Origin: Liolophura sinensis
Taxonomy: Eukaryota > Mollusca > Polyplacophora > Chitonida > Chitonidae
DNA length: 64,000 nucleotides
Reading direction: 5' to 3'
Assembly: GCF_032854445.1 (NCBI RefSeq)
Contig: NC_088300.1
Span: 30,485,608-30,549,607, forward strand
The stretch's first letter is position 1. Every line of letters starts with the position of its first letter. This document shows, in pieces, positions 3,691 through 61,000 of this stretch. The notes beneath the pieces are model-generated. The model was not told the DNA's origin. It worked only from the letters and a program-made list of their open reading frames with translations, and did not search any database. The position numbers were made by a program, and so were the translations under genes.

Positions 3691-4460
3691 ATCACAAATA
3701 ATCACAGAAAATTGTTCTGAGGTCAATGACCTAAGTGTTAGGGTTGCTGTTGCTCTCAAAACAAGTAGTACTGAGCAAAAATCATCAATCGACCTAATTT
3801 TGTGTATAACGTTACACATAGACGAAGCGCGTACCACGGCAAAAATTCTATACACGTGAGCCTTTAAGGTCTATCTTGGATCCAACTTAACTTTTCTACA
3901 CTGCTACGCATCAATGATCGAAAATCTCTCAGAGACTTGGAAATTTAATGTCGTCAAGTACATGCCTGAGTAACTTTCTTGACTGCCATGCTCTTGAGAC
4001 CTCGACTCGCCAATTTACTTTGTGTATACAGATAAACGCAATTCGTTTTATTCTTTATTGTCTCATTGTATTTTGAATACTTGCATTTACTCTCTGACCG
4101 TCGTGCGCATGTCAGATATGTAGTAATGCAAATAATGTCCTAATGATCAAACAAGTGCGATACGGATTTCGTCTCCAAGCAGTAGTCCTCCATTGTTCCC
4201 GCTGTTAAGTAGGTCGTGGTGACCTACTTTAACACTCACATATTGAAGGTAAGTTTGAAACGCATATACAGTCGCCAGTGTATGTGACGGATGCATGGCG
4301 AGTTTTCTGTCAAACGATAGGGTCCTGTTCTTCGTTGTATAGTTGCTATATACGCTACATATCTCCAGGCGTTCAACATCATTGGGTTTATCAATATAAG
4401 CCCTGCGTTTCTGCGAGAGTTCCACCTTCGCCACGGTAGTAAGGTTCAAGAAACTTCACT

Positions 4461-7400
4461 ATGATACTGGACATTCTTTCTGCAAACCTCACGACGGTGC
4501 TCATCTTCGTTATAGCTTTCCTGCTCGTCTGGCGAACTCTCCGTCGCCCGGCCGGGAATCTGCCCCCGGGCCCCTGGCCCCTACCGATCTTTGGCAATCT
4601 CCTGTCTCTGGGTGGGGCGGACTCGCGGAAAAGTCTGGAAGCCCTCCGAGAGAAGTACGGAGATGTGTACACACTGTACATTGGTAAACACCCCAGCGTG
4701 TACGTCCACGGCTACGAGAACGTGAAGGAAGTCCTTGTAACAAGGGGAGACGACTTTGTTGACCGGCCCCAGTCATTGAAACTGGTGCAGGAGGCGGAGG
4801 GAAAAGGTATCGATTAACTACGTCTGTATACGTTAGAAATCAAATAACTGGCAGTTAAATCATGAAATCAAAAATGCTGTTTTGTGTGGCCTGGGGGAAG
4901 GGGGAGGGGGTACGAGGCGCGTATGCGTTGATACTTTATTAAGCATATACCTGAACAGTTGGAATAAAACCCTATGTGCGGTAAATTGACAAGTGATCGA
5001 AATTCACCAGTAATACGTGCCATTATTTACCAACTGTTACACTTTACTCTCCCTGCTGTGTAGTCTTTTATGTTGTATTCCTACACAAATCAGGACTCTA
5101 CTGGTGGACTAAGTATCCCCAAGACCCATGGCTTTTTTTAAATGTGACTGTGTATTAATTATGATGATAACACAGCATTTTGAGTTTTTATAGTCTTGCA
5201 CCAAACATCACTGCATTTTTAACCTAATTCTGCCAAAGACATGGTGCTAGGGGATGTATACGTTGCTACTTTTCAAGCATGTAGACCTACATGAACAGTG
5301 GGAATAACACCCCAACTGTTATCTGTGACCATTTGCTAACTAGCACACTTACTTCACTGCTTTAGTTTTGTTCTCTGCGCTGTAGTTTTTTTCTCTATAT
5401 CTGTGAAGTCCAAATGTTTGTTTATGCATATTTTATCACCTGTGACGTTTATTACTGTTTCGACATTCTACTTAGCATTTTGTAACAAACTGATCCTGAT
5501 AAAGCGTTGATACTTGACGCCTATTGTTCCTGGCAAATTCCTCCCGATACATGAAATGGCGGGGTCGAATGCAAATGTCTGAAAAATCTGCGATTTAGCT
5601 TGGATAAAGAACAGCACATGTCCTATGATGACGCACTGACACAATTCAACAATAATCACGCAATCTTTTGTGACACCGATCACAGTTTAAAGATAAAAAC
5701 TTAAAAATATATATATATATGCTAAATCCTGGGTTGTGGACCAAATATGCAATGTTGAAGCATAGGCACAAATCATCACGTGCTCTTGGTTGCCCCATAA
5801 ATGACCCTTTCTGCGCATGAGTAATAACGCTCTCTCGAAGTCGTTAGCTGGCCTATATGGTATGGTTGGCATGATTGACAGTTCCATATTTCTGCTTAAT
5901 TGTCTTCCAGTTATAACGCTCAGGGCTCAATTTGTAGCTCTGACATAGGTCTCTATATTATTACACCTTATAATTTGATACAACAAGTTTGCATAGATCA
6001 TTCTGGTGTTCACTGTACACAAATTTACTTGTACAAACAAAGTACATGTTGTTGTTATGAAAAGCAGGTATTATGCCTCAAGTGGAAACGGAACTGTGGT
6101 ATATCGTATGAGAAAGATGATATGCCAGTTACTACACAAACCACCTTGTCATTAACATGCTTCCTGCTGTTACAATTGCAAACAACATCAAAAATTGCCG
6201 TAAGCCAGCGCTTCAGGCATTCTAGCAGGATATGTATGTGGTACATGCGGTTGTCAGATCAGCTTAATTCTTATCGTTGAAAACATTAAATCCACGGTGT
6301 ATAACTGTGCATTATTCAATGGTCTTGATGGGAATTTAAACCTCTAGAAAGCGACACATTTAAATATAAACTGTTAATCTAAAGCATCTTCTAAAGCATG
6401 ATTTGAGTTCATTCAGAAAGAGACACGATTTCTTCAAGTTTGTTGTTCCCGTTAGGCCATATAACATGAGCTGTTTCCCAAAATGAATAGCGTTCATCAA
6501 CTATATAGCCTTGTCCCACACTGAATGTACTTGTACATGAAGCTATATAAACCCAGGGAGAGGCACGAGAAGGAATATAATTGACATATCATATACATTT
6601 TATCAATAATAATGATAATATGCAGACAATACTTGGTGCAAATACCGAAGTTTTACCTTGACGTGGTACAAAACACAGCCTCTTTACACAAATAAGATCA
6701 TGTCATTGTGACCCAGACAACACTGGTTAATTAATAACACAATGTAATAATGAACACTGTATAGGATGATTCATGGCTCAGTTAGTTCTTGGTTTTTTGT
6801 TGTTTTTTTTTAGGGGGGGGGGGGTGTTTTTTTTTTTTTGCTGTCTATTGAGGTTGAAGATTTCACTCTGATTGTTGTGAATAAAATAGCGGGGTGTGCT
6901 TGACGACTGAAGCCTGAAACGACAGACGCAACTATTAGTTATGTTATGGTGGAGTATAAATATCTCTGAGATGCCGTGCTCCGTATCTTAGTCATAACAA
7001 CACAAGGAGTAATTCTGACAACTGCACAACAAGATTAATCAACTCCAGCTACATTAGTTGTTTTTTCTTTTTTTTTTTTTTTTGAACTTTACTATATATA
7101 GGCATGCTTTTGGTTTTACGTCGTACTTAACAATTTTGAATCATACGACGAAGAGTCATGAGGTGTGTGAACATACGCTGTGCGTCCTCGTGGCACGGTG
7201 AGTCCACGCCGCCAGTGAGGTATCATGCCGCAGACACCAGACATTACACCCCACCAAGTCACAGTGGCATTATACTGACACAGAGCCAACCAGTCCTGTT
7301 TCCTAGCTCAAACCTTTCAGTGTTGAGCGCCAAGCGAGGCAGTAACAAGTACCCTTTTTATACCCATTTACTTTTTACTTGAACTTTTTCGTTACTTTAC

Positions 7401-9469
7401 CAGGTATTTTGTTCACGTCCGGTAAAGTATGGCAAGAACAGAGAAGATTCTCGATTCAGGCGCTAAAAGATTTTGGCTTTGGGAAACACGACCTCCAGGT
7501 GAAGATCCAGGAGGAAGTAGAGGTTTTGGTGAATCGCATCAGTGACCTTCAAGGTCAACCATTTGACCTTCACGACCTCATCCACATCTCGGTCTCCAAC
7601 GTCATCTGCTCTGTTGTGTTCGGTACCCGATTCGAGCATGACGACAACGAGTTTAAAACCTACGTGGACATGTTGGACGAGAATTTCAGGTTGACGGAGA
7701 CAGCCATCTTGGGTTTACTGATTCCGTTTTCTTACTTACTCCCCGGAGATCTGTTCCACATGAAGAGGCTAGAAGAAAACAAGCATATACTGAAAAGTTT
7801 TATCACCAACTTGATCCAGGCTCACAAGGAATCCTTTGATCCCAACAATCGAAGAGATTTCATCGATGCGTATATGAGGGAAGCGAGAGAACGACAACAA
7901 CACGATCCTGAGACAACGTTATCTGGTAAGCTGATGTGAAGAGTATATAACGCTACTGTGCCCTTCAGTAATGGGAGTAAAGTTAACACATGGGCAACGT
8001 GCATATTTATGTCTAGATGAGTAATCTCATGTTTTTCGACAGATGGCTTGTCAATTCTAAATTTTCATTTAGATAGGTTAGAACAAGGTCCTCGAGCTAC
8101 ATTCGCGCTAGACTACCGTGTTTACTTTTCTGTAAGTTTCTGTTGATTTTATATTTTTGCATTACTATATAACGACATACTAGCTAAATCGCGAAATTAA
8201 GACTTGATCTTCAGGTATTGTCCTCTGTTTTCACTGGATAAAACCTCGTATCGTGCACAAATATGTAGATGGAAAGTAGAACAAACTGGTCGTGACCTCA
8301 AAGGCGAAATAGTATCCGAATTTAAATGCATTCGCTTTTTTATGAATAGTCATTCTAACACCTAGTTTTGATATGTCCGCGGAGAATAATTAACTTGAAA
8401 CATTCAGGCAATTTTTGGGGCGTGGGGGAAGGGGTGTCTATTCTAACCCTGTTTGACGCACATATTTTGAAAATCTTATCGATCTTTCTGTCTTTCTTTC
8501 CTTATTCTTCCTCTGATTCCGCCAGAGGACCAGCTCGGTGCTGTGATAAGTGACTTGTTTGCGGCCGGAACTGAATCCACTTCGACAGTTATCCGCTGGG
8601 CGGCACTTCTGATGCTGAAATACCCGGATGTCCAAGGTCGTGTGAGACGGGAGATAGACTCTGTGGTGGGCGGTCGTCTGCCTTCTTTGGCCGATCGACA
8701 GCATTTACCTTTCACCGAAGCCACAATGATGGAGGTGTTGAGGTATACAGATATAGCCATGGCGGGCCATGCGACTGTCCGAGACTTAACCTTCCATGGG
8801 TACAACATTCCTAAGGGAACAACCGTGATGCCGTGTTTTCATTGCGCTCTTCACGATAGGAACTACTGGAAACACCCTGATATTTTCAACCCTGACAGAT
8901 TTTTGGACGATTGGGGACATTTTCGGAAACCTGAATCTTTTATCCCGTTTTCAGCAGGTTAGATCTTTGTTCAAAGTCAGCCATTCATCTGGCCTTCATT
9001 TTGTCCGCAACAAATAAAGTGAACATAGCACATATTATATTTTCTGCCGTCCCAAAAGGTGTTGTACCGGAGACAAAAATAATGGATGAGAGCAAAACTA
9101 ATGGATCTTTTTATTTTACTTAAGCAACGCCCAAATAAATACCGTTCAAAAATATTAACCTCGTCTGTGCACATTACCATTCAAAGTCCGAACACTAAAG
9201 TTACTAAAGTTTAAACTTTTTCACTGCGTCAGAGAAAAACCAAACTCGTCTAAACCATGCTGACCATATCATTGTTGTCTTCCACAGGCCGGCGGGTATG
9301 CTTGGGAGAGTCGTTAGCCAGGATGGAATTGTATCTTTTCTTTTCCGCCATCTTGCAGCGTTTTGAACTTCGGCTACCAGATGGCGCTGGTGAACCGGAT
9401 TTGACGCCTGTCATTGGCATAACTAGAATGCCCAAACGCTTCGAAATGATTGCAAAGTTACGCCATTAA
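4461..9469 (+). CDS. Cytochrome P450, clan 2 (CYP2-like), complete, 4 exons
   Basis: Membrane-anchored haem monooxygenase, expected in the endoplasmic reticulum with NADPH-P450 reductase; substrate unknown. Coding exons are 4461-4806, 7404-7925, 8526-8957 and 9288-9469. All introns are GT-AG and phase 1, giving 493 residues, typical of the family. Visible in order: a hydrophobic N-terminal anchor (about 1-24), the proline-rich hinge LPPGPWPLP (about 34-42), the helix-C motif KVWQEQRR, the oxygen-binding I-helix motif AGTEST (303-308), ExxR (E359 to R362), PDRF (412-415) and the haem loop FSAGRRVCLGE, with Cys438 as the thiolate ligand. The last intron splits the haem loop after its first glycine codon. 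Oddity: between ExxR and the beta1-4 region the stretch IAMAGHATVRD is about two residues shorter than usual and lacks the common VPH proline. CYP2 against another clan-2 family cannot be settled by eye. Confidence 0.95.
7108..7375 (-). repeat. SINE-like element, family C, in P450 intron 1
   Basis: TTTTGGTTTTACGTCGTACTT tail, then TCATACGACGAAGAGTCATG and GTATCATGCCGCAGACACCAG. Related copies lie at 13986, 17280, 16735 and 52150. It ends about 30 bases before the exon 2 acceptor (7404). Confidence 0.8.
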
Positions 9470-22500: not shown

Positions 22501-25500
22501 AACAAGGGGGATAATCCATTACAGTTTTCAACTTTCCATTCCGTTTAGAGTAGTGTCCCCTAACATACGTCATTGTTGTCCAGGTCTTCAAAAGTGTTGA
22601 TAATTCTAAATGGAAGAATTTGCTCACCTAATTTTATACTCAAGCTGTCGTGTTCATTTTCTTTATACACAAAACCATTGTGGACAAAAAACTCTCCATT
22701 TGACCTGGCACCATAAAAAATAAATATCTACAAAAGAATAAACAATGAAGACATTATGCTACATGTAGGAACGATGGTGCTGACTTTTAAACAATGACTG
22801 GCCATAGGAAATACAAGATGACTTACAAATTGCACAATGTATTGTTTTAGGACTAGTAAAATTACCTGTTGATCGGTGAGAAAGTCCTTCATACAGAAAC
22901 ACTCTCCTCTATCCTGTTCCAAGTTAAAGTCTGTGGACAACTGAAAACAGAGAGTATCATTTTGTTTTTTTAAATACATGTCTTTCACAAAACATTTTTT
23001 TGTTGAACACATTTTCTGTTATACTCACTGATGAAAACTCTTGTACACCAGCCTTGTTTTATGGAAAAAAGAACTACATTTAGCCATGTTCTTATGGTAA
23101 ATGCCTAAAAGGTGCCAATGTCAGAATTTTTGTAAAGCTATCTGAATGCATGTCAATTACAAAAGAAGGAAACACAATTTCAAAACAAGAAATACAAATT
23201 TTTTTTCTCAATTTACTAAGAATCTACTGGAAATATTTTGTGTCTTACTTAGCATGTTGATCTGATATAATTAAGTAATTCATGACCTGTTCACATGAAG
23301 TAGTCATTACTGTGAATCATACAAATGTATCAATTACATAAAGAAGTGGTCTTTCAGCTCTACAATTTATCTGGACATTATATCGACTTAGTTTTCTCAC
23401 CTGTCCATTTTGATGATTGCACATATCCCAAAGGGGAATGAGTCCATATGTCATGTGACCACCATCCACTGATGGGATTGGATTTTGCCTTGTCATCACC
23501 GTGGAAACTGCCCATCTACATAGTAAAGAACATATCAGATGAAAGGATAACATACATGCCTCTCCCACAGGGGAGCTTTCCTGCACTGAAACTATAAATT
23601 TTCCGTTCAAAGTAAATCTGAATTTTAGGCAGGGCTGTATAAACCTCCATGTAGTAAGACAGAACCATTAGTCAGAGTTGGATTTGAGCCATCAACCTCA
23701 TTGTTCAAATGTTGATGGAAACCATCTTCAAGAAACATGTCAAAATCCCAACAGGCATAAATTTATGTTATTTGACTAGTGTTTTACGCCACTGACAAAT
23801 ATTGGACTTATGTGACAGTGGCCAGCATTACGGCCACTTTGTATAAAAAATTACCTGTAGTCATCATAGGTGAAGATATCTTTAATAGGAAGTTTGGCTG
23901 CCAATGGATTTGTCTGAAAAAATACAACAAAATTCACATTATACTTTCATTTAATATTATGTAGAACTACCAGGAAATCTTTTCATTATTTTTCAATTCC
24001 ACTTTCATATTGGTGCTGACCCCTTTGATTCTATGTACCAGTTTTGACAGCCACTCTTTGATCCACCTGTTTTTAACAATACCCTTTGACCCATCTATCA
24101 CTCTACTCTTTGATCCAATCTAACTGTTTACTCTTTGATCCTATATACATTTTTAAAATACTTCTTGATCCTATCTACCAGTTCTGATACTCTTTGATCC
24201 TATCTATCCATTTAAATATTGTTTCATCCTGTTTATCTGCTTTATTACTCTTAGATCATATCTACTCATTTACTCCTTCATCCTGTTTTTAAAATTTTTT
24301 CTCCTGCCTACCAGTTTTGATACTCTTTGATCAAATATACCTGTTCTAATACTATTTCATCTTATCTACCTGTTTTAATCCTTTTGATCATTTCTGCCTC
24401 CTATCTACATGATCTACCTGTTTACTTTGTCATCCTATTTACCTGTTTTAATCCTTTTTGATCACATCTGCCTCCTATCTACATGATCCACCTGTTTACT
24501 ATGTCATCCTATTTACCTGTTTCAATCATTTTTGATCATATCTGCCTCTTATCTACATGATCTACCTGTTTACTCTGCCATCCTATTTACCTGTTTTAAT
24601 CCTTTTTGATTACCTTATATGATCATAAAAATCGTCCATGATTAACATGCCCATTTTTCCTGATTCTGAGAGTTTGATTGAGTTTAGATAGCTGTTTTGA
24701 GGTTTGCTTGGAACATGGGATGACATTCTTCTGGAAAATTGTAAGTTTCAGCACCAAAAAAAAAATACTGTGTGACATTTATTTGCCTCTAAAATTGCAC
24801 ATTTGTGAGTGAAATTTGAGGTCATTGAGGGTATATATGCGTCCTATCTACCTGTTTACTCTGTCATCCTATCTGCCTATGTTACTATTTTTTATCCTAT
24901 ATACCCGTTTTAGTACTCTTTGATCCTATCGACTCCTTTCCCCTTCATCCTATATCACATGTATCTACACAGATGTGCATGCTGCATCATGGAGATTCTC
25001 ACCTGAAGATGTCTGTAGAAATAAGCGTATTGTCTTGTGATGTTTCTGAACTGATTGATCGCCTCACCTGAAATATGTAACACCAATACAGAAATGTGTA
25101 ACACCAACATAGAAAAGTGTAACATCAACATAGAAACATGTAACACCAACATAGAAACATGTTACCATGAACACGGAATTATGTAATAATAAAATACAAA
25201 TCCACAAAGACAAACCATGGTCAATATTACAGTGACCAAGGGCCCGTTTCACACATTGGGTGCAGCATTACATACCTACCCTTGTGACATAATACATATA
25301 TCACTGATCAGCATAGAAATCATGTGCATGTAACTCATTGGTCTTCTTTGTGAAAGAAGCCCCCAGAAATTCCAAACAAAGAAGGAAACAATGTATCTTT
25401 TACACTGTCATTTAGGAAAAGATGCAGAATTTGGAAGAAAGAAATTTTTGACTATACTTGACATAAACCAGGGGTCACTATCACAAAACTTCAGACTCAC

Positions 25501-31530: not shown

Positions 31531-31561
31531 CGATCAAAGTGATAGAGGAATATGTGAAACA

Positions 31562-32397
31562 CCGTCTTTTGTGATGGAGAAAAATGTGAGACTCCATCCT
31601 AAGTGATGAACAAAAATGATATCATCCTTTGTGATGGGAGGAAAATGTGTGAAACAATACTTTGTGATGGGGGGAAATGTGAGCCACCACCCTGAATGGA
31701 GGAAAATGTGAGCCACCATCCTGAGTGACGGAGGGAAATGTGAGCCACCATCCTGAATGATGGAGGAAAATGTGAGCCACCATCCTGAGTGATGGAGGGA
31801 AATGTGAGCCACCATCCTGAGTGATGGAGGAAAATGTGAGCCACCATCCTGAGTGATGGAGGGAAATGTGAGCCACCATCCTGAGTGATGGAGGAAAATG
31901 TGAGCCACCATCCTGAATGATGGAGGAAAATGTGAGCCACCATCCTTTGTGGTGGAGGAAAATGTGAGCCACCATCCTGAGTGATGGAGGAAAATGTGAG
32001 CCACCATCCTGAATGATGGAGGAAAATGTGAGCCACCATCCTTTGTGGTGGAGGAAAATGTGAGCCACCATCCTGAGTGATGGAGGGAAATGTGAGCCAC
32101 CATCCTGAATGATGGAGGAAAATGTGAGCCACCATCCTGAGTGATGGAGGGAAATGTGAGCCACCATCCTGAGTGATGGAGGAAAATGTGAGCCACCATC
32201 CTGAATGATGGAGGAAAATGTGAGCCACCATCCTTTGTGGTGGAGGAAAATGTGAGCCACCATCCTGAGTGATGGAGGGAAATGTGAGCCACCATCCTGA
32301 GTGATGGAGGAAAATGTGAGTCACCATCCTGAATGATGGAGGAAAATGTGAGCCAAATGTGAAAAACTATCTTGTGCAATTGAGGAAAATGTGACAC
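31562..32397. repeat. 32-bp minisatellite, about 24-26 copies
   Basis: Unit on the plus strand: GATGGAGGAAAATGTGAGCC followed by ACCATCCTGAGT. Inner units are nearly identical, differing at GGAAAA/GGGAAA, GAGTGATGG/GAATGATGG and TTTGTGGTGG. The outer units (31562-31720 and 32340-32397) are diverged, as expected for an array that grows from its middle. TTTGTGGTGG variants sit about 96 bp or multiples apart, hinting at a three-unit higher-order repeat. All three minus-strand frames are open for over 200 codons because 32 is not a multiple of three and the unit has no stop on that strand. Confidence 0.96.
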
Positions 32398-40000: not shown

Positions 40001-43000
40001 ATTGCTTATAGTACGTTTATATTCATTTGATTTCAAAATCCTGCGGTTTCGAGCCGATGCACAAATGCTACCAGGTTACCGTCTATATACAGATAACTCT
40101 GCCACCTCTACATGCCATCCTAAACAGAGTTTTGAGGAGCTCATCACTGTAGGCATTGAGGAATTGATTTGACGTTAAAAACTCATCAGTGTATCCGTTA
40201 GCTTAACAGAACAGCAGTAACCTGACGAACCAATTTGATCTTTCATCAGATATCAATAAAATCTCCACGTGACATTGCTTCAATATAAATCCTCAAAGTG
40301 CCCCCATATTAAACTCTGGAACTAAGCTAACAACACTCATCTGACACACTGTGCCAACTCTCTCACAATACATTGCCTAAAGCATACAACAGACTGCGTC
40401 AGCTCACCTTTGTTAAGGAAGCTGACGAGTACGTCCTGCCAGACTTTGGCCAGTGATGGGATTTGCCACAATTCACGGATGCCACTGATTCGGATCAGGG
40501 AGTTCTCCAGCTTCTGGCTCTGTGGAAGTAAAGAGAGCTTTTGCTGATAAGTACATGTAGATGCTTAATGGAGCTGAGATAAAAACACAACATATTGTGA
40601 GGAAATAGATTTGATTTGATTGGTGATTTACGCCTTACCCAAGAATATTTTACTTTTACGATGGCGTCCACCGTTTTGGTGGGAGGAAACCAGGCAGAGC
40701 CTAGATGCATTCTTGCTGGCAGACCTGCCCATGTATGACCAAAGAGGAAGGCAGCATGAGCTGGATTTGAACTCACAGCAAGCATGACCTGGATTTGAAC
40801 TCGCAGCAAACACACTGATAAGAGCCCCTTGGGTCATTGCACTGTGCTGGCACGCTAATCACCTTGGGCACAATTCTACAATGTATCTGAAATCCTGCCA
40901 TATTGTTAGACAAAAAAAAAAAAGAAACCAAACATGTAACATAATAAAAGATTTACAACATAAAGAGTAAAACTAGAGCAGCAATGACAGTGTGGTAGTG
41001 GCCAAACTGTCACATGTAACTGGAGACATGGGTGCTAAAGGGCCTCCTGTCAATTTACCTCAATGTTCGTGTAAATGGCAGTACAGTAGCAAACTGTAAG
41101 CCTTCCAGTACCATTGCCTAAGCAGAATTGGATAAATAAAAATGCAGAGATGTTAACTACAATTTAATGAACGTCACTGGTCTAGAATTACTCAAAATGT
41201 TGTGTTGTCATCACATTTAACACACAATAACATATCGAACTTTTCTGTTGGACACCAACCTTACCCTGCCAAACATCTACAATTTCTGCAATTAATATTA
41301 CAAATATTAATCAGTGATCATTCTTACCATGCCAAAGGCTTGTAATTTCTGCAAAACACAGCTCCACAAGTGAACATCAGCAATGTTATAATCCAGACAA
41401 ATGTCACACACTAACTGTACGGCCTGAGGGGAAAGGAATTAAAGTTTATTTATTTATTTACTTGATTGCTGTTTCACGCCATACTCAAGAATACTTCACT
41501 TATACGATCAGGGCCAGCATTATGATATGAGGAAAGCCTTGATCATCCACGGCCGGAGTGGAAGCTGGATTAGAACTCATATCGACTGCGTTAGTGACAA
41601 GACTCCTGAGTCAATGTGCCGCAGAATTGAAATGCATCATGAATATCAATCATTCTCATGATAACAATGTTTTTCCTTCAATGTATTTCAGTTCATTGTA
41701 GGATAATTCTGACAAAGCCAATGAAGGTCCATGCTTTTAAGAGCAAAGGCATGTTAGAAAAATTTGTTAAATTGAATGTATCACAAAGTTACACTAATCA
41801 CACATCTCAGCCATAGAGCTTAGGACTCATTAAATAATGACCCAGCAGTTTCACAGACATTTTGATGACAAGAAGAGCTAACAGGTCAAATATGTGAAAT
41901 TTGAGAAAACACATGTACCGGTAGATTAAAATCACATCTATGGTAACCACTGATAAACTGTATTGGAACTGTCATATATAATACTCTATTGTACTGAATA
42001 TTCCATGACAGGAGAGTCATTTAACAGAATGTCAGACAATGTGATGTTTGACAGACCTCCTTTAATAGATGAGCTCAGCTAGTTTTCTAAATAAATAAGT
42101 TATAAATTACTCCAGTTTTTAAAATTTTGCAATGAGGTATGGACGCTTGTTCAACAATGCTGCTAAAACAGTTCTGTTCAAAAATTTCAGCAGAACTGTA
42201 GACTTACAACTTTCTTGTGACTGTGTTTCTGCCAGACGGCCTTTACCAGGGCATGTTTGTTACACTGTGTAAAACTGTCCAAGCTGTGCTGAATGTTCAA
42301 ACTGTCCAGGTCCACCAGATACATCAACACCTGCAACTCACACCTGGGCAACAACACAAACAGATTTGTTCAAACTGCCCAGGTCCACCAGATACATCAA
42401 CACCTGCAACTCACACCTGGGCAACAACACAAACAGATTTGTTCAAACTGCCCAGTTCCACCAGATACATCAACACCTGCAACTCACAACTGGGCAACAA
42501 CACAAACAGATTTGTTCAAACTGTCCAGGTCCACCAGATACATCAACACCTGCAACTCACACCTGGGCAACAACACAAACAGATTTGTTCAAACTGCCCA
42601 GGTCCACCAGATACATCAAAACCTGCAACTCACACCTGGGCAACAACACAAACAGATTTGTTCAAACTGCCCAGTTCCACCAGATACATCAACACCTGCA
42701 ACTCACAACTGGGCAACAACACAAACAGATTTGTTCAAACTGTCCAGGTCCACCAGATACATCAACACCTGCAACTCACACCTAGGCAACAACACAAACA
42801 GATTTGTTGTATGGAGTTAATAGCTGGATAAGACGCTGCCAACACGTGAAAAATCCCAGACATGTATTATAATAAACAACATTACTACCCTTTTTCTTTC
42901 ATGTTCGATTTTACATATCACATCATATTTCTATCTATTTTTTTTTGAATAGTGTTTAGATGCACAACAATATATTAAATGATAACATGTTAAACAATGC

Positions 43001-46000
43001 CAAATGATCTAAAGGAGTGTTTGAAGCGAAAAAACATGTCAGCAAAACCTGTTTTACCAAAAACACAAACCATACATACAAAGAGCAAGTCATCATGGAA
43101 TTTATTACAAAAAACAGGGATATACTTGAAAAAAATATGTGAAAGAGCAAGTATAGGATAGATATACATGACATTTTTTCAAATCATACAAAAATACAGA
43201 AAGGCAAGGTCTAAAAACATAGGGTTCCTCTCTGATTATATGTTGGAAGGCTTTCCAGCAACCAGAGGATGGTTGTGGGTTTCCTCTGGGCTCTGCCTTG
43301 TTTCCTCCCATCATATGCATGAAATATTCTTGAGCGCAGCGTAAAACACAAATAAATAAATAGGCATAAAACACCAATCAAATATTTATTTATTTATTTA
43401 TTTGACTGGTGTTTTATGCTGTACTCCAGAATATTTCACTTATACGACAGCAGCCAGCATTATGATCCAATCAAATAAATAAATAAATGCAATCATAGGG
43501 CACACTGCAATTCCTCAGATAAAACCTTATCTGATACCTTAATCAAACACGAAAGTTTTCGGCGTCTAAACAGACTAATACCCTTGGAATATATGCCTGA
43601 ATCATCATCACATAATCATGAGAGTCCTAGACAGTACTGTAGAAATACAATTGTTTATCAACACTGAAACACTGAAAGTGGAGGGTATCTGTAAAACATC
43701 AAAGCAACAAACAACATCTCTTTCCTACCTGGTTTTAACTGCTGGCTTTCCACACACACGCTCAATAGTAGCATCATCTGCTAGTTCCAGTAAACATCGC
43801 AACGCTCTCACCAGACATTTGTTACTCTGCATCACACTATCCGTCTGTGCACAACAACAACAGCATCATTATAGTAATAATACATCAGACTAAAATCAAG
43901 TCATCCATGACAGGCCCCAACACATGAACATTAAAACTGAACTGCACACTTCAGTTCTGTAGATTTTTCTCTTCAAAATTCGAAACAAAAATTCTCAGAA
44001 AGCTTGGCATAATGTACATAGATGCAATGCTTCTCAGATAACAAGAGGGAATATTATTTCCAAGAACAGTACAAGATCAGAAATTCATTTCAGAAAGTAA
44101 AGAAAGGCATTTTGGGGGACAGTATTGGGGGAATGGTAAGTGCTGACAGCCCTCTGGCAGGTAAAGAGGCAAATAATTTTAACACAGAAGATTTGATGCC
44201 AAAAACAACGAGAATAAGAGACAAGTAAGCTTACTGGAGAAGTGTTGAAGAAATGGAACAGGAACTGACAGCTAAACTCTTCCGTGTAGAATCTCAATAG
44301 GTACATCACCCTAAATAAGAGTAATACACACAGAACACGGTGAACATCTGAAAATACCTCAGGTCAGAACATACTCAAAGTTGATAAACAAAAAAGCAGG
44401 ACACTTGCAAATGCTATACAGTGCAGTGAAATTCATGCAAAAATAATAATAAAAAAAAAAAGATTCCTCTATTAATGTACAATCTAACTGCAGAATTCAG
44501 TCTGATTCTACATAAACAATTTTCTGATCAGAGCCACATGTTTCCCTCTCTCAACGAATAAATAATTTTACTTCATAGCAGTAAAGCTAAACACAAGCCA
44601 ACAAAAGGTTTGGACAAGAGTTACCTACCTTCTGAGGGAGGACTCTTCATCCTCAGAGACAGGCTCTTCTTTTGCAAAGTCCATATTTGTGAATGTAAAA
44701 TTCATGGTCTGGAAGAGGGAAAAAAGATTACGTCTTTCGCAGCTGTGTTGGAGTACATCAGTGCAGGTGTTAAGAGGGTAACAATACCATTCTGGCAGTT
44801 ATTTGGTAACGAACTCCTGCATTATGCTGCTCACACTGCCATTCAGGGAGAGCAGCAGTTAACAGTGGTACAAACCACATAACACTTTGTGTTCTTTTTA
44901 TCAGTCTGCAGTATTTCACTTGAATTACAAACTTGATATAATAAGCAATCAATTATTGTTCTACAGTTTTAACAGGATCTCCAAAATTCTCATTCTCTAC
45001 TAATACAGGAGACTTACTGCGTCCGTATCCTCCTCTGCCCTGCTCTCCCCTCCTAAACACTCCAGGATCAAATCATTCACAATCTTCTCCAGCTGAATCG
45101 AGTTCACTGCAGCAATCTTCTTGGCCATTTCATGAATATCTACCAATGGATGGACTCGACATGAGGAACAGAGACAATGTCAGTCTTTGTATTACTATAA
45201 TTGTTCAATTTTTTCACATGTTTGCAAGGCGTTTATTCAGACATATTCTGAAGGCATTACTCTGTGTAGACCAATACAATTATACTTTCTGTGAAACCCT
45301 GAAATTGGTCAATCCAATAAATGTTTCCGAAATCAAAACAGAAATGTGCATGAATTGTACTGAAAGTTGCCCCTTCATGTGCACAAAAGGTTGAGAAATT
45401 AGATTACTATGATTTGTGCAATAAAATAATAAGCTGATATTTTCTATGGAGATTTTCAACCATTATTAACTTGACATTTTGTCACTAACCAGGTTTGGCC
45501 CCATCTCGTTCGTCCTCATGTTGCAGAATGCTGGGATGCATGTAGAGCTTGTGAAGGAGAGCTTTAGGGTTGTTAGCCAGCTGTACTAGCTCTGGCTGAG
45601 TCATGCTGGCTTGATACAATATCCTCTCTGTGGCCAAACGCTGGTACAGCTCAGAAAACTTGATATGGGTAGCCTTGGCTCGCTCTTTGCTGGATGTCTA
45701 AAATTGAATTATATGATGACAAACCAAAAGACTACAAGGTAAAGAGCACATACATATGAAGTAAGCATGGTCAGCAGAAAGTTCATTAAAACTCTATCTG
45801 ACAACGCTTGACTTTACAGTATTTATTTTTATGCAGTCAACATATTGGTTGTGAATTACATCAACTGTCTTCTTTCCCTTTCTCTTTATGATATGGCTGA
45901 GATATTGTTGATGTGGCGTGAAGCCATTATCATTCATTCATTCATTTCAATCATTCCCTTTCACGCGACGATATGAATGTTTTCACAAAGATAAAACCAT

Positions 46001-49000
46001 TTTTTCAAGAGGGATCACTAAGTGTGGCAACATACCAGTTTTAAATAAAATGAAAGATTGAGAAAAATGTAAATACATGTAAATGTAGAATTACTTACAC
46101 CTTCCTCAGCCGCCTTGTACCACTTCATTGCATAGCTTATACCCTTCTCCAGGGCTACCAGCTTCTCAACACCTGCAAGTACAGTTATACAAAATAGGAT
46201 TTTCATTTGTCTGAATGTTTGAACTCTACTGATGAACATCCTGCCATCAACCTTTTTGGATAGAACAAGCATTTGCATTGTCCGCATCGATCAGTAGCAG
46301 ACACAACAAGCCATGAGTACTCACCAACAGGCAGTATTAAAATGACGCAGGAGATACAGCATACCTTGAGTACTCACTGACTGGCAATACAGAAATCACG
46401 TAGGAGATACAGAATGCTGTGAGTACTCACCAACTGGCAATTCACAAAATCACAAAGGAGATACAGCATGGCATCAGTACTCACCAACTGGCAGTAGAGA
46501 AATCACAGAGGTGACACAGAATACCATGAGTACTGACCAACTGGCAATACAGAAATCACGTAGGAGATACAGCATGCCATGAGTACTCACCAACTGGCAA
46601 TTCAAAAATCACAAAGGAGATACAGCATGGCATCAGTACTCACCAACTGGCAGTAGAGAAATCACAGAGGTGACACAGAATGCCATGAGTACTCACCAAC
46701 TGGCAGTACAGAAATGACGGAGGAGATACAGCAGGCCATGGCCATCTCACAGTTTGACAGTTTGACCAGCATCTCCTCTACCTTCCTCAGCATTTCCATG
46801 CCAGCCTCGCTCAGCTCCCAGCTAGATGGGCTGATCTTAGAGGCATCTGTCCCCGCCATCAGGCGGAAGGAGTTGTTCTCCTTGTACTGTACTACTGTGT
46901 TCTTGATGGCTGCCATGTACAGGTTGTCCAGGGGGATCTAGGAGACAACAGAGATTCCATGTTAGTCTGCAGGCACAGCATGTAGGCCTAGTTTACAACA
47001 CGAAATGGACGAAACTGATTTTTATTGCTATGATCAAAGAGTTTTCACCTGCACAATAGTTGTCAGCTACATGGGTACTTAAAACTGGAGAGCCTGTTGG
47101 AACCACCAGCCTCAACTTTTGCAATTAACTAACAAACTTTTCCTCATGTGATGCATACACTTTCACTTTCAGATCAACATCACTGTGTATTCCACAGTGG
47201 CAACAGGAAAGCTCTGATTAACAATGTTCATGTTAGACTACCCAAACGAGCCTACATCAACTATTGACTGCTAATTTTCTCAGAGGCAGGGCTGAACCAT
47301 TGCCTTGTGTGAAAGGCCTATTCAAACAAAACATCCTAACCCTGCTACAGACATGTCCATATTTCAATGAGGGCTGCATGTGAAGTACATGAGCCTGGCG
47401 TTTGGAGGGGGTGCTCCATGAAGAGATTTTTTTTGGCATTATTGTTTTTTCTTTGTTTGTTTTAACAGAGATGCATCATTTGTTATTAATGTCGCCAGGT
47501 GTTGAATCTCACCTGTAACAATTTAGCCATTGGGATCCACTGTGTCACAGTACCATAGTTCAGCTCGGGTTCTGTAAATAGTTACACAACCAATACATAT
47601 AATCTCACACATACAACCATAAATTCCTCATGTACAATACACTTCACACATAAAAACCATGACCTGAGAGTACCACTGCTTAACAGTTTCAAATGTGAAG
47701 CCATAAAAGACAAGATTGACATGCTTATGGGAAGAAGTACACAGTGACACAGACCCCAAAAAATATCTCACATACAAATGACAGATTTGACCCTTGTACA
47801 ATATAAATTTTACACACAAAAATTCTGACCTCCAAAAACTAATGTTTGACGTTTTCAAAGGTGACTTCATAAACAAGAAGAAACCAAATAATGATATGTT
47901 TGTGGGAAGAGGCACACAGCTATCAAACATATGACATTTTCCAGACTGTAATATATTTTCTTAAAACAAAATATTTTTTAGGAAAAGGGTGAAAACAAAC
48001 TTAACAGTGCTACATTTTTGTCTGACGTGTTTGGTAAATAAACAATGTTTAAACAGGAATTCTTACGATGACAAGGAACCCGCCATTTTAGAGCAACCAA
48101 AACACAATATCAATGAGAGTACGGGGGATGTAAGCAGAAACAGACGCGTGCCTCACTTATAGAAATAGCCGGCGCCTCGTTGGCTTACACTGATACCATA
48201 GCAGTGATTTCGACTGTCTGAACAGCATGGGGCTTAATTTGAACTGCGATATCTTTGTCGTGCAACATCACAAAAATTAAAAGCTATGCTTTCTAAACTT
48301 CCTGCAGGATACTTTATTGATGCATATATACATTTGGTCCAGTATTGTCCTTTCTTTTAAACATCTATAATCAAATAAAAGATAGACTGCACTGTCCACA
48401 GAAAAACATGCTGATGTTTCACACAGTTCAAAGCTATAATTATGTCATGCATAATCAACAGACAAAGGGACTACACTTTAATCTTGAACTTATCTTGAGC
48501 AGATGGTCATTCAGCTCAGAAATACTTCTTCTGGAATGTAAAAAAACTACAGGTACTTACTGATAATGCTCATGGGTTTGTCTGACATTAGAGGGGGGTA
48601 TGGTAGCCTATCCTGTGACAAGGGATGAAGAGACTCCAGTCCACACACTAACTGTAACACCACCATACACCTTTATGTCATAAATTTACAGTAACTTTTT
48701 AAGTGTATAATAATACATAAGAATAACAATAAATAATAAGACATATTTCATCAGTCAAATATTGTGGAGGAGAAAGGTAAGATCGCCACTATATAATTTT
48801 TCAGTTTGTTAGTTTTGGATATTTGTACTATAGATATCTGATACTGTGTCCCATAATGCACTGCACGTAACAGACAGTGATCATTAATATACAGGGTTAT
48901 TTGAGTAAGACAATCATGTTACACTAACTTACCTCTTCAGACTCCTGCATAATGCTGTACTTAATCTCTGCCTCTGTGGGAGGGACACAGCGTTGGTAGA

Positions 49001-55000: not shown

Positions 55001-58000
55001 GTAGAAGGCATGACCTGACTCAGGATTGATCCCAAAATCCCAGGTGAATTCTTCATTGTAGCCATGACAACAGCTCAGGAGTTCATACTGTAGAGGTTGT
55101 TTGTACACATAGCAAGCCAAAAATTTAATAACTTTTTCTTTCAAATTGAATATTTTAGTAATTTACGGGCCCTCATATTTCCATATAGCATATTTTACCA
55201 TTTCATTTTCGATGTATATTTCAAATAATGCAATACCACAAATCTCAAATTCCTGTTAACACAGTAGTCAATTACTGCATTCAAATTGTTGTATCCCATC
55301 ACCCAGACTTTTTCTAGTTTTCATTTTATTATGAAAAATCATCAAAGTTATTGTCAAGCAGCATATTTGTGCTCATTCTATAAATACAACATGCGAAAGA
55401 TTTCTTTCTTTAAAAAATATTATAATTAGTTTGGGCAGTCAACTTGTAATATATAAAGCAAACTAGATCTTTTGCCAACAAAAGTCATTAACCTTAATCA
55501 AACAACTTGTACATAGCCAAAAAGTTCAGAAGCAAAATAAACCGGAGAAGAAACGAAGATGGCATGGAACAGCCTTTCAGCTTCTGGTTAAGGTGATTAA
55601 ATTGAGTTTTTCCACAAGTATTGAATGACAGACTCTAAAAACAAGCAAAATATTGAATAACAAACACATACAGGTCGATATCAACTCATCCAGACAACTC
55701 ACCTACAAGTCCCATGTGAGAGCTGGTAACACGGGCAGCTAGAGGTAAAGCCAGGGCAGAATCTAAGACCAGGGCATCCTCTCTGAACACAGTATCCAGA
55801 TTCCATACAGCGTAAGGGTCCTGGGATGTGGCATCTCCCATCTGTAATAAACACTGGCTACCGATATCATGTAGGACTTATACTTAGGCGAAATCAATTT
55901 TATTTATCAGTTTTACAGGTGAACTGACACTTACTAATCCAAAAATGGAAATATGTATAAAACTGAAAATCCACCTCTTCATTTTGTCTGACCTCCATAT
56001 GATTTACCTGTTTCTCAAGGCTTCTCACTCAAGTAAATAACAGGAAAAATTGCTGAGATTACCCAAATTTCCCATAAATCACCCAATTTTTAAATTTTAT
56101 TTGTTTGTTTAATACTCTCCTCTGACATTGAAAAAAAGATGTATTCTGTGATGACAACAACATTTTGAATGGGTGTGTCCTTATGACATTTCTAACTTAT
56201 AATACAAGGATTATTCTCTCTTTATCTTTAACATGTTTGAACACAGACTGATGTTTTAGTGTATTTCATGTAAAGTTTACTATGTAAAATGCACTTTCAG
56301 GAGCACATACAGGCCTTAAAATGCCACTTTTGAAGCCAATACTTAGGTTTTTCTGATTAGAAATTAATCAAACTTCACAAATAAATTCAAACTGGCCATA
56401 TAAGCTCAATATTTACCTGTTCAGATAGGTCATAGTCACCTGCCTCACACTGACCACACAGTCTGCAGGAGAGATCTGTCACTTTACACAGCTCCAAGCA
56501 TTTCCCAATTAACTCTGTCAAATGGCCAACATATCAGAAATATATGAGCTCAAGCACAGCTCAATAGAATAAATATACATACATGTAAGTTGCATGTGTA
56601 AGTGGTAGAATACATATACATACATGTAAGTGGTCTTAGAATTGAGCTACATGCTGATGCACATCAAGGACCAATTGAAAGCTTTTTTGGTCAAAAACGA
56701 AATATATGCAGCATCTTATAAAGCAGTTTCATCACTCTGCCTGGCCTAAGAATCCACGGCAAACAAACAGTGAAGACATACATCGACATGGTAAATGACG
56801 TAGCATTGCGACAGCTTTGTAAGTTGTGCCCCTGAATGCTACTTTAACAGCTTATCCATGTAAAGAAAATGATTCAAAGTGATACATGATTCTATATTTC
56901 AGTTTAATTTAAACCAATTTCAATAGAATTTTCCCAGGAGTTTTCAAGAAAGTGGTATAAAAAAAAAAAAAAAAAAAGGAGATTAAAAACAATGACCTCC
57001 ATGTCACTGGTGTAGATTTTCAGACAATTTACAACGACAGAAGGAAGGACGACAGTGCCAGAAAACTTTCAATTACTTCACTTTAATTACACTTTTCTAA
57101 TGAGATTGTCATCAGAATGGCAATTTCTGACCTGGGCATATTTGGGCTGACAAACTGGCTTGATCTAATCGACGACAACATCAACAATATGAAACTTTCA
57201 AACCTAAGAGAGCTCTCAATTTAACTCTTTCAACATAAATAAATCAACTAGTTTCCATATTAACACCAAACCTGTGGTAAAAGCCTAAGCGGACACCAAC
57301 ATCATCACTGAAACTGCCACATTTTCCTCTCAAAATATCTCATCTACTGTCTAACAGTAATTGTCACGAAGCACTATTTGTTATACATGTATTATGGCAC
57401 AGGTGCTGTTATCAGAATTTATGCTTAGTGTACCTGTGGGGCAAAGGATGACTGCCTGAGAGGCAAGAGTGTTGAGAACGGGCGGTAGCCGGCGAAGCAC
57501 GTCTATGGGTGGACTCTCTAATGAGGCTAGGTTATCCTGAAGTACACACAGCGTCCTGGCCACATCATACATCACTCTGCCTGTCTGTGGGGTGGGCTCA
57601 GTGTCCAGTAGCATCCTGACAAATGACAACATCTATACAGTTATTCATCACTCTGCCTGTCTGTGAGGTGTACCCAGTGTCCAGTAGCATCCTGACAAAT
57701 GACAGTGTCCAGTAGCATCCTGACAAATGACAACATCTACACAGTTATTCATCACTCTGCCTGTTTGTGAGGTGTACCCAGTATCCAGTAGCATCCTGAC
57801 AAATGACAACATCTATACAGTTACTCATCACTCTGCCTGTCTGTGAGGTGTACCCAGTGTCCAGTAGCATCCTGACAAATGACAACATCTATACAGTTAT
57901 TCATCACTCTGCCTGTCTGTGAGGTGTACCCAGTGTCCAGTAGCATCCTGACAAATGACAACATCTATACAGTTATTCATCACTCTGCCTGTTTGTTAGG

Positions 58001-61000
58001 TGTGTCCAGTGTCCAGTACATAATGAAAACCTTTGATGACACTAGATCTTACCTGCAAAGGTCTATAGCAGTGTCAACTTGTGCACTTCTGGCCGCCTTT
58101 AACACCAGCTGACCCAATAGCTGGGGACGTCCCACCTGGAGCACATCTGCCAGTCTGCAAAACAACAGACGAGGCAATGTATGAGTCATAATGCAAGAGA
58201 TGGCAATGCAAGGGTCATGATGCAAGACATGGCAATGTAACTGTCACAATACAAGACATGGCAAAGGAAAGGTCATGATTCCAACATGACAATGTAAGAG
58301 TCATGATACAAGAGATGGCAATGTAAGGGTCATGATGCAAGACATAAGAGTGTAATTGTCATGATACAAGACATGGCAATGTAAGGGTCATGATTCAGAC
58401 ATGGCAATGTAACTGTCACAATACAAGACATGGCAAAGGAAAGGTCATGATTCCAACATGGCAATGTAAGAGTCATGATACAAGAGATGGCAATGTAAGG
58501 GTCATGATGCAAGACATTAGAGTGTAATTGTCATGATACAAGACATGGCAATGTAAGGGTCATGATTCAGACATGGCAATGTAAGTGTCATGATACAAGA
58601 CATGGCAATGTAAGAGTCATGATGCAAGACATGGCAATGTAAGGGTCATGATACAAGACATGGCAATGTGAGTGAGTGAGTGCTTAGGGTTTAATGTCAT
58701 ACTTTTTTCAGTCATATGACAACTAAGAACTCTTTAGAGTGCGTGTACGTGTAATGTGTCTCCTTGTTGCACGACAGATTTCTGCTCTTTTATCTAGTGT
58801 TGCTTCACTGAGACGACTTAGAGAGGGCAAGTAAGCCGCTCTACCCAAACCATTATACTGATATGGGTCAAAGTCATTGCACTATCCCCTTAATGCTGCA
58901 CGCCAAGTGAGGAAGCGTCTTCTTTTAAGGTCTTAGGTGTGACCCAATCCAGGACTGACCCTGGACACGGACGCTCTACCGAGCCATCGGAGCCAGTGGT
59001 GATGTAAGAGTCATGATGGCTACCATTAATGCTTCCCGGTCGGGAAGAACCAAAGTAATCCAAATCTATTTTTAGATATATTTTCTTTTGCTCCTTTGGG
59101 CTGCCCTTTTTCGTTTCTTTCTGCTTGTACAGTGGCAGCACTTTGTAGCAGAGGCTTCAAAGTTTCATTCCAGGTATAAATTTGTGTACTTTTCAGAGAA
59201 TAGTGGCAGACGCACACTAGACAAAAGTAGTGGAAAGTGCCGTTTGCTCTCCATGGGTGGGTTTGACCGCTATCTGCTGTTTGTCAAATTTGTGAAAAAT
59301 GTCATCGTTCAACTCCTAACAGGAATTTAACTGGTGGTGTGTCAGGGGTTGAGGATTAACAGGCCTGGAGCTTTTGGGACTCAGCAAAACACAGCAAAAT
59401 ATGAATGTGTCACAATAGATAAAAAAGACTGTTAGAATTATGATTTCAGAAAAGACAATTTCAGGGATCTGATAGGTAAAAAATCTTATAAATCAATGGT
59501 GACGAGCAAAAAACAGTGTATACTCCTTATGTTGAATATTATAAACTAAAATGAAGTATAACAACACATCCTCACAATATTTTATCTCACTTTGTACTGT
59601 CAATTTAAAAAAATTTAAAAGCACTGGATCTTACCTGAACAGCTTGTTGTAGCACAGTGCATTCTGAAAAAAAAAAAAAACATAAAGAAAAAATAAGCCA
59701 AACAACAAAGCCTCAAGCAGATATATGTACTTGCACTCTACAGACATGATTGTGGTGAACCAAGAAAATAGCTGAAATTTACTATCATAGCCCAAAAAGG
59801 CCGGGGTCCAGGGGCCGCCTAGGCCCCGTAAGCTGGAAAAATCTGCGGAAAACAGGTAAATTAATCGAAAACTGAACAAAGAAAAAGCGGAATTCCGCTA
59901 AAAAGCGGAAAAAAATCATGTCTGACTCTAGAAACAGCTCTGCACATGGAGCCCTCAGTGGCCAAATGAACTAAAAGCTTCATCCAGAAGCCGACTGATT
60001 GTTCAGCAATGAGGTCCAAGGTTTAAATCCAGCTTCTGCTGGACTGGATGGGGATTAAGAGGTTTGTCAGGTATATGGTGAGGTTTTGTTTTTCGCACCC
60101 TAAATCAGGCCGCTGTTATATGAGTGATATGCTCTGAAGTAGTTGAGCAAATCAGTGCATCAGTGACCAGACAACTAACATGTATGTATTGTATAAAGTA
60201 GAGAAAGCTATGTTAAGAATATACGGTCCCTTGTCAAATGGATTATTAAATGTGCCCATGACAAGACGCTCACCATTTGCTGATTTGTCCTAGAGAACAT
60301 GTCCTGTATGTGTTTGGCCAGCAGGGAATCTCGCTGCACCTCACTTCTGTAATCATTCAGTTTGACCACCTCCTCAAACTCTGTCTAAAAAGTACAGAAA
60401 AAAGGTATGATACACACCTGACACGTAAGGCTTCACAGAGTTGGCAAGTGTTGAGGTTTTCACTGATGACAAATTAAACTGACCAAGAATTCTGTGAGAA
60501 ACTCAACAGCAACAACTTCCTCAACAAAATACAAATGTATCACAGGCCACCATCAGAATAGCTTAGCAACTTTGAAAATGTGATCAAAAATGATAAATGT
60601 ATGTGAGCCCCCAAACTTGGGTCTGTTGGTCTAATCTGTACAAACAAAAAATAGTAAGGAAAACATGCAAGGAATAACAAGCTTACCTGTAGGGTGGCAA
60701 GACTGTCAAATTCATGCTTGGCATCTGCATATTCCTCCACATCAAGACGATCTTAAAGACAAAATAAAATCTGACCTTTAACACAACAATGTAACCATAC
60801 ACATCAACGTACATTGTACACACCCAAACCAAAGTTAGCAAGACGTCTAACCAGACTAAGACACCACCAGCATCACTATAACTCACCCTCAGACAGACAT
60901 ACATACACATAGTACCGTATGTCACAAGAGCACCAGAAAGCACATGTAGATGGTGCAAAATTATCGGCTTCAACTCCAAACTATGTCCTGGCAATTTTAC

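Follow-up and report, generated by a model that had tools for sequence, protein, structure and literature searches.

Tandem copies of splice sites in the KNTC1 gene of the mollusc Liolophura sinensis: probable near-neutral mirage minisatellites

The window, which is the whole stretch of 64,000 nucleotides analysed here, comes from contig NC_088300.1 of Liolophura sinensis and carries the gene KNTC1 (Rod) on its minus strand. The joined translation of the C-terminal exons, a rough model, matched chain R of 7qpg at 8.1e-40. This human chain is kinetochore-associated protein 1, and the joined KNTC1 exon model was aligned with it up to residue 2213. The KNTC1 translation also matched the Pfam family Rod_C at 2.4e-45. 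At the junctions 43729/42343 and 46697/46172, the alignment to 7qpg_R was gap-free, which indicates a conserved KNTC1 protein without an extra block at these places. A preliminary description of the locus had named the gene as KNTC1 and had placed the repeated border at the start of exon w29, and these matches together with the gap-free junction support both assignments. On the plus strand, the translation of 4000-9000 contains exons that we take to be cytochrome P450-like. The features around exon w29 are as follows.

43729..43844, minus strand: KNTC1 exon w28, whose donor directly follows 43729 (7qpg_R alignment, gene finder, site score)
42816..42820, minus strand: TTAAC resembling a branch point, 36 nt upstream of the acceptor at 42781 (motif scan)
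42296..42806, minus strand: array A, seven 73-bp units, each joining the last 25 nt of the intron to the first 48 nt of the exon (TRF, unit comparison)
42369..42806, minus strand: the six decoy units of array A (splice-site scoring)
42707..42781, minus strand: example of a 75-nt cassette, followed by a 71-nt potential intron (open reading, gene-finder choice)
42208..42343, minus strand: KNTC1 exon w29, 136 nt, whose start lies in the final copy of array A (gap-free 7qpg_R alignment at the junction, Rod_C, site scores)

The intron between w28 and w29 (43728-42344) is 1,385 nt long with array A included. TRF called the array at 42294-42808 with a period of 73, 7.1 copies and 96% matches, and seven acceptors were located, with exon starts at 42781, 42708, 42635, 42562, 42489, 42416 and 42343. 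The seven tandem copies and the composition of the unit were thus as first described, whereas the interval of 42208-42810 previously given for the array was too wide, because it includes the rest of exon w29. The unit order is a' b c' a b c a, and the units differ pairwise at 0-4 of 73 sites. The units at 42708 and 42489 are identical, as are those at 42562 and 42343, and the units at 42635 and 42416 differ at one site. These identities confirm the claim that copies 1-3 correspond to copies 4-6, so that a second-order repeat of 219 bp holds. The short stretch AACA is common to the intron flank CATACAACAAATC, the unit junction TTTGAACAAATC and the exon TTTGAACATTC.

A search of the whole assembly found array A at a single place. 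The published assembly that matches it closely was made from HiFi reads with a mean length of 8,347 bp at 14x, as given in PMC11068029. We consider it extremely unlikely that array A is an assembly artefact, for which nothing speaks beyond the repeat itself. The HiFi reads reported there are many times the length of the 511-bp array, the differences between its copies, at most 4 in 73 sites, follow an order, and similar arrays (B, C and D) occur elsewhere.

Array A is indeed not unique, since arrays B and C lie in KNTC1 and array D lies in another gene. The features of arrays B and C are the following.

46697..46937, minus strand: KNTC1 exon of which array B repeats the 3' end (7qpg_R homology, gene finder)
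46299..46740, minus strand: array B, 53-bp units, eight copies of exon end plus 5' splice site, mostly GCCAGTTG/gtgagtac (TRF, site scores)
57434..57615, minus strand: KNTC1 exon of which array C repeats the 5' end (placed by frame and gene finder; taken alone, its 7qpg_R stretch is not significant)
57599..58018, minus strand: array C, 76-bp units, one of them shortened, of acceptor and about 46 nt of exon start (TRF, site scores)

The eight donors of array B, which repeat the end of exon 46937-46697, are spaced 53-54 bp apart and scored 5.0-7.2. In most units of array B, CCAG stands 3 nt ahead of the donor, and 3-nt microexons are formally possible. In array C, the decoy acceptors are at 57947, 57871, 57795, 57719 and 57691 and the true acceptor is at 57615; the array C acceptors scored 7.1-7.6. 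Four of the five decoys share changes that are absent from the true exon, and the fifth is shortened there. Array D (L018:5539-6132) lies outside the window, about 187 kb from array A, and has 11.2 copies of 53 bp with 97% matches. It holds 11 copies of a 5' splice site, GTGATG or GTTGATG/gtaaga, after an exon. The exon at array D matched Pfam PF15874 at 3.5e-6, with 27.6 bits where the cut-off is 27, and a PDB search with it gave no match. All four arrays are tandem copies spanning an intron-exon border. An authentic border joined to an exon of a conserved protein was found by homology and frame for array A, by homology for array B, and by frame and gene finder only for array C.

The matrix used for scoring splice sites was a simple one. 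It was derived from 227 donors and 227 acceptors of predicted exons, themselves found with splice matrices, rather than from RNA-proven sites. The decoy and true acceptors of array A scored alike, at 7.5-9.3. Branch points follow the rule yTnAy. The previously proposed branch point upstream of the 5'-most copy was recovered as the TTAAC before 42781, but it lies about 474 nt from 42343 and not 440 nt. TTGAT, which also matches yTnAy, was found 54 nt upstream of each of the other six acceptors; therefore, a near branch point is not necessarily lacking at 42343.

Each of the six decoy acceptors, joined alone to w28 and to the donor 42208, led to a stop after one unit, and of the seven acceptors only 42343 stayed open in the same joining. 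The claim that only the copy at 42343 is readable was therefore borne out. It had also been proposed that the decoys are either ignored or yield unproductive transcripts. These two outcomes are not the sole options, since cassettes keep the frame and AG/GTGTGA is a possible recursive site. If decoys were used in a regulated manner, array A might act as a poison array whose early-stop transcripts lower the level of KNTC1. The stops in all six decoys and the decoy acceptor scores, similar to the true one, are compatible with such a role, but RT-PCR of comparable repeats in amphioxus suggested undisturbed splicing, as far as reported in PMC3087553, and we regard this role as very unlikely.

Exon w29 starts with GTGTGAGT, and its acceptor is thereby fused to a donor-like sequence. 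Four of the six decoys begin with AG/GTGTGAG, and the other two begin with AG/TTGTGAG, in which no GT follows the AG. The zero-nt donor CAG/GTGTGA scored 8.2 bits in three decoys and in the true copy, which exceeds 91% of the 227 predicted donors, and the acceptors beside it scored 9.3. An acceptor directly followed by a plausible donor (6.3-8.2) was found in four decoys and the true copy. With the acceptor fused to a donor, a further round of splicing could remove a decoy, in the manner of ratchet points. The acceptor 42781, which is nearest to the w28 donor and has the best branch-like motif, would then be used first, AG/GTGTGA would serve as a new donor, and one or more further steps would follow until 42343 is reached. 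Normal mRNA would result, and array A would be a ladder of ratchet points. We consider such recursive removal conceivable but rather doubtful. The layout of acceptor, donor, short exon and later donor resembles that of the Drosophila ratchet points with RS-exons described in PMC8605326, and just two of the 227 predicted exon starts reach a donor score of 8.2. However, the ratchet points in that description sit in long introns, whereas the intron here, at 1,385 nt with the array, is not long. The GT after the AG is missing in two decoys, and the 42781 copy, with TAG/GTGTGA, scored only 6.3 bits. Exon starts with GT are also not rare: 26 of the 227 predicted exon starts begin in this way, 10 of these score at least 6, and 3 of the 16 KNTC1 exon starts checked also begin with GT. 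Moreover, the composite AG/GTGTGA is already given by what the true exon encodes (TGT GAG), and no selection is needed to explain it.

A second donor-like sequence, GTGAGT at +2, is present in all seven copies, the six decoys included, and scored 6.0-6.6; the upper value corresponds to about the 67th percentile of the 227 predicted donors. The TGA of GTG-TGA falls inside this GTGAGT. A copy extended by 2 nt into its successor measures 75 nt, or 25 codons, and is a cassette that keeps the frame. All 12 enumerated paths with at least one cassette kept the frame, or 13 of 13 when the direct path is included, and the gene finder chose a path with three added cassettes. Some transcripts might accordingly be imagined to carry one to three 75-nt cassettes, which would create KNTC1 isoforms with 25-residue repeats. 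Besides the open paths and the choice of the gene finder, this is favoured by the finding that none of the 227 predicted exon starts has GTGAGT or GTAAGT within 0-3 nt, compared with all seven copies here. Nevertheless, no such block appears in the alignment to the human chain 7qpg_R, 71 nt would be a short intron, and the zero-nt donor beats the +2 donor in three of the six decoys. The gene finder runs its models through other arrays too, namely B, C and a 32-bp array at 31538-32355; its choice of cassettes thus shows only that the sequence signals permit them, and it weighs little. We believe that exon creation of this kind is decidedly unlikely.

We also asked how often minisatellites hold exon borders. 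TRF was run on 314 kb (the window and loci L002-L026), and arrays with a period of 20-260, at least 1.9 copies and a score of at least 90 were kept, giving 51 arrays after merging. The arrays were collapsed, genes were predicted by a home-made Viterbi finder, and the arrays holding a predicted junction were counted. At the loosest threshold, a junction was present in 8 of the 51 arrays, where 8.0 were expected by chance (P 0.57), and stricter thresholds gave 7 against 6.7, 5 against 4.9, and 5 against 3.6 (P 0.29), all from a noisy gene predictor and with low power. An earlier count, in which exons were cut off strictly and arrays were collapsed less well, had given 1 of 51 against 3.2 expected, and it was replaced because it missed arrays A and C. 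The eight junction-holding arrays are A, B, C and D and four doubtful ones (31538, 68863, 224880 and 266608). The border arrays in the 314 kb therefore number four, one of which is in the 250 kb outside the window. For KNTC1 alone, three of six arrays lay on borders against 0.65 expected (P 0.017), a post hoc count over a self-chosen span of 36600-58700 with 30 exons, part of which are proven by homology. A kinase search meant to supply exons for an unbiased border count yielded no loci. No general preference of minisatellites for exon borders is demonstrated. For now, the chance placement of abundant minisatellites in genes, tolerated as one border stays whole, suffices as an explanation.

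Further repeats were seen near exon starts. A 29-bp minisatellite with 17 copies at 58173-58669 stops about 18 nt short of the start of a KNTC1 exon at 58154. At 25070-25162, the pyrimidine-rich end of an intron is made up of a 21-bp repeat, immediately ahead of a predicted exon (start 25067) that lies upstream of SETD3-like exons. A 32-bp repeat with acceptor-like stretches resembling TTTTTTACAG was found at L004:2925-3024 (joined position 86925-87024). Although TTTTTTACAG is repeated in it, this array was not counted as a border array, having no proven exon.

As a separate observation, COX1 matches in the assembly were confined to two contigs: of the eight matches, seven are on contig C99 at steps of about 15.4-15.6 kb and one is on C632. 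In the assembly, contig C99 resembles several mitochondrial genomes strung together head to tail. Under the invertebrate mitochondrial code, COX1 has an open frame of 512 residues with 12 TGA, 7 AGA and 1 AGG codons, a pattern that agrees with a mollusc but is not specific to molluscs.

With a probability of roughly 0.75, we believe that array A is a mirage minisatellite straddling a 3' splice site, that it is near neutral, that the mature mRNA uses 42343, and that arrays B, C and D are alike. The array may have started with a single tandem duplication between short matching stretches such as AACA. Slippage or unequal exchange would then have produced three units, after which the 219-bp block was presumably duplicated. 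The array would be close to neutral because one complete border remains joined to the body of the exon. In the mature mRNA, w28 is probably joined to 42343, because exon-wide pairing with the donor 42208 gives the closest acceptor the advantage. The choice of a wrong acceptor would lead to a stop or could be followed by re-splicing at AG/GTGTGA. Two findings speak against the neutral reading: the strongest branch-like motif precedes the 5'-most decoy and not the working copy, and our own gene finder preferred the path with three cassettes.

If array A were instead a working ladder of recursive or cassette units, as the sequence signals alone would allow, KNTC1 transcripts would go through several of its copies, most of which are an acceptor fused to a donor, and would be either restored exactly or enlarged by in-frame blocks of 25 residues. 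We think that this is unlikely. Were it true, mutation of the minisatellite would determine both the splicing path and the length of the protein made by a spindle-checkpoint gene, and many such arrays would be present in mollusc genomes, from which new introns could arise. Arrays with seven to eleven nearly identical splice sites offer a natural way to test how the spliceosome selects one of several equal sites, and also whether intron gain is fed by tandem duplication.

Several known systems can be compared with these arrays. In Drosophila, ratchet points with RS-exons are described in long introns (PMC8605326). As in that description, a donor adjoins the acceptor AG in array A, and a short exon with a second donor comes after it; in contrast to it, array A is tandem, lies in a 1.4-kb intron and is known here from sequence. 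The potato RdRp gene is described as having gained an intron via duplication of an intron-exon structure, and ATP2A1 is another case of tandem duplication (PMC4974935). Array A is similar to these cases, as far as they are presented there, in that tandem duplication supplies both AG and GT, and potato also copied an intron-exon structure. Unlike them, array A has seven copies, and a new intron is only potential.

The closest counterparts are the mirages named in amphioxus, where the globin genes BflGb6 and BflGb9 carry minisatellite-like copies of intron-exon borders (PMC3087553). According to that report, AG/GT signals are retained in many but not all repeats, RT-PCR suggests regular splicing, and the BflGb6 mirage has six units in one haplotype and three in another. 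The lancelet genes PGBD5, Adh (Adh3) and troponin C also have mirages (PMC3902484). The arrays of L. sinensis share with the amphioxus mirages, as described in these sources, the tandem copies of a 5' or 3' intron-exon border, the AG or GT retained in many copies, the single authentic border joined to the exon, and units of tens of bp to about 160 bp. They therefore belong to an already described kind, namely mirages. In a limited literature search, no report of mirages or border repeats in molluscs was found, and the descriptions that were found (PMC3087553, PMC3902484) come from lancelets; within the literature searched, this is possibly the first such case noted in a mollusc. In contrast to the amphioxus mirages, the three arrays of KNTC1 occur together in one mollusc gene, and array A has an ordered higher-order repeat of three units and an acceptor fused to a strong donor-like sequence. 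A single mollusc gene thus carries minisatellites that duplicate both 3' and 5' borders, as a counterpart to the earlier descriptions from lancelets.
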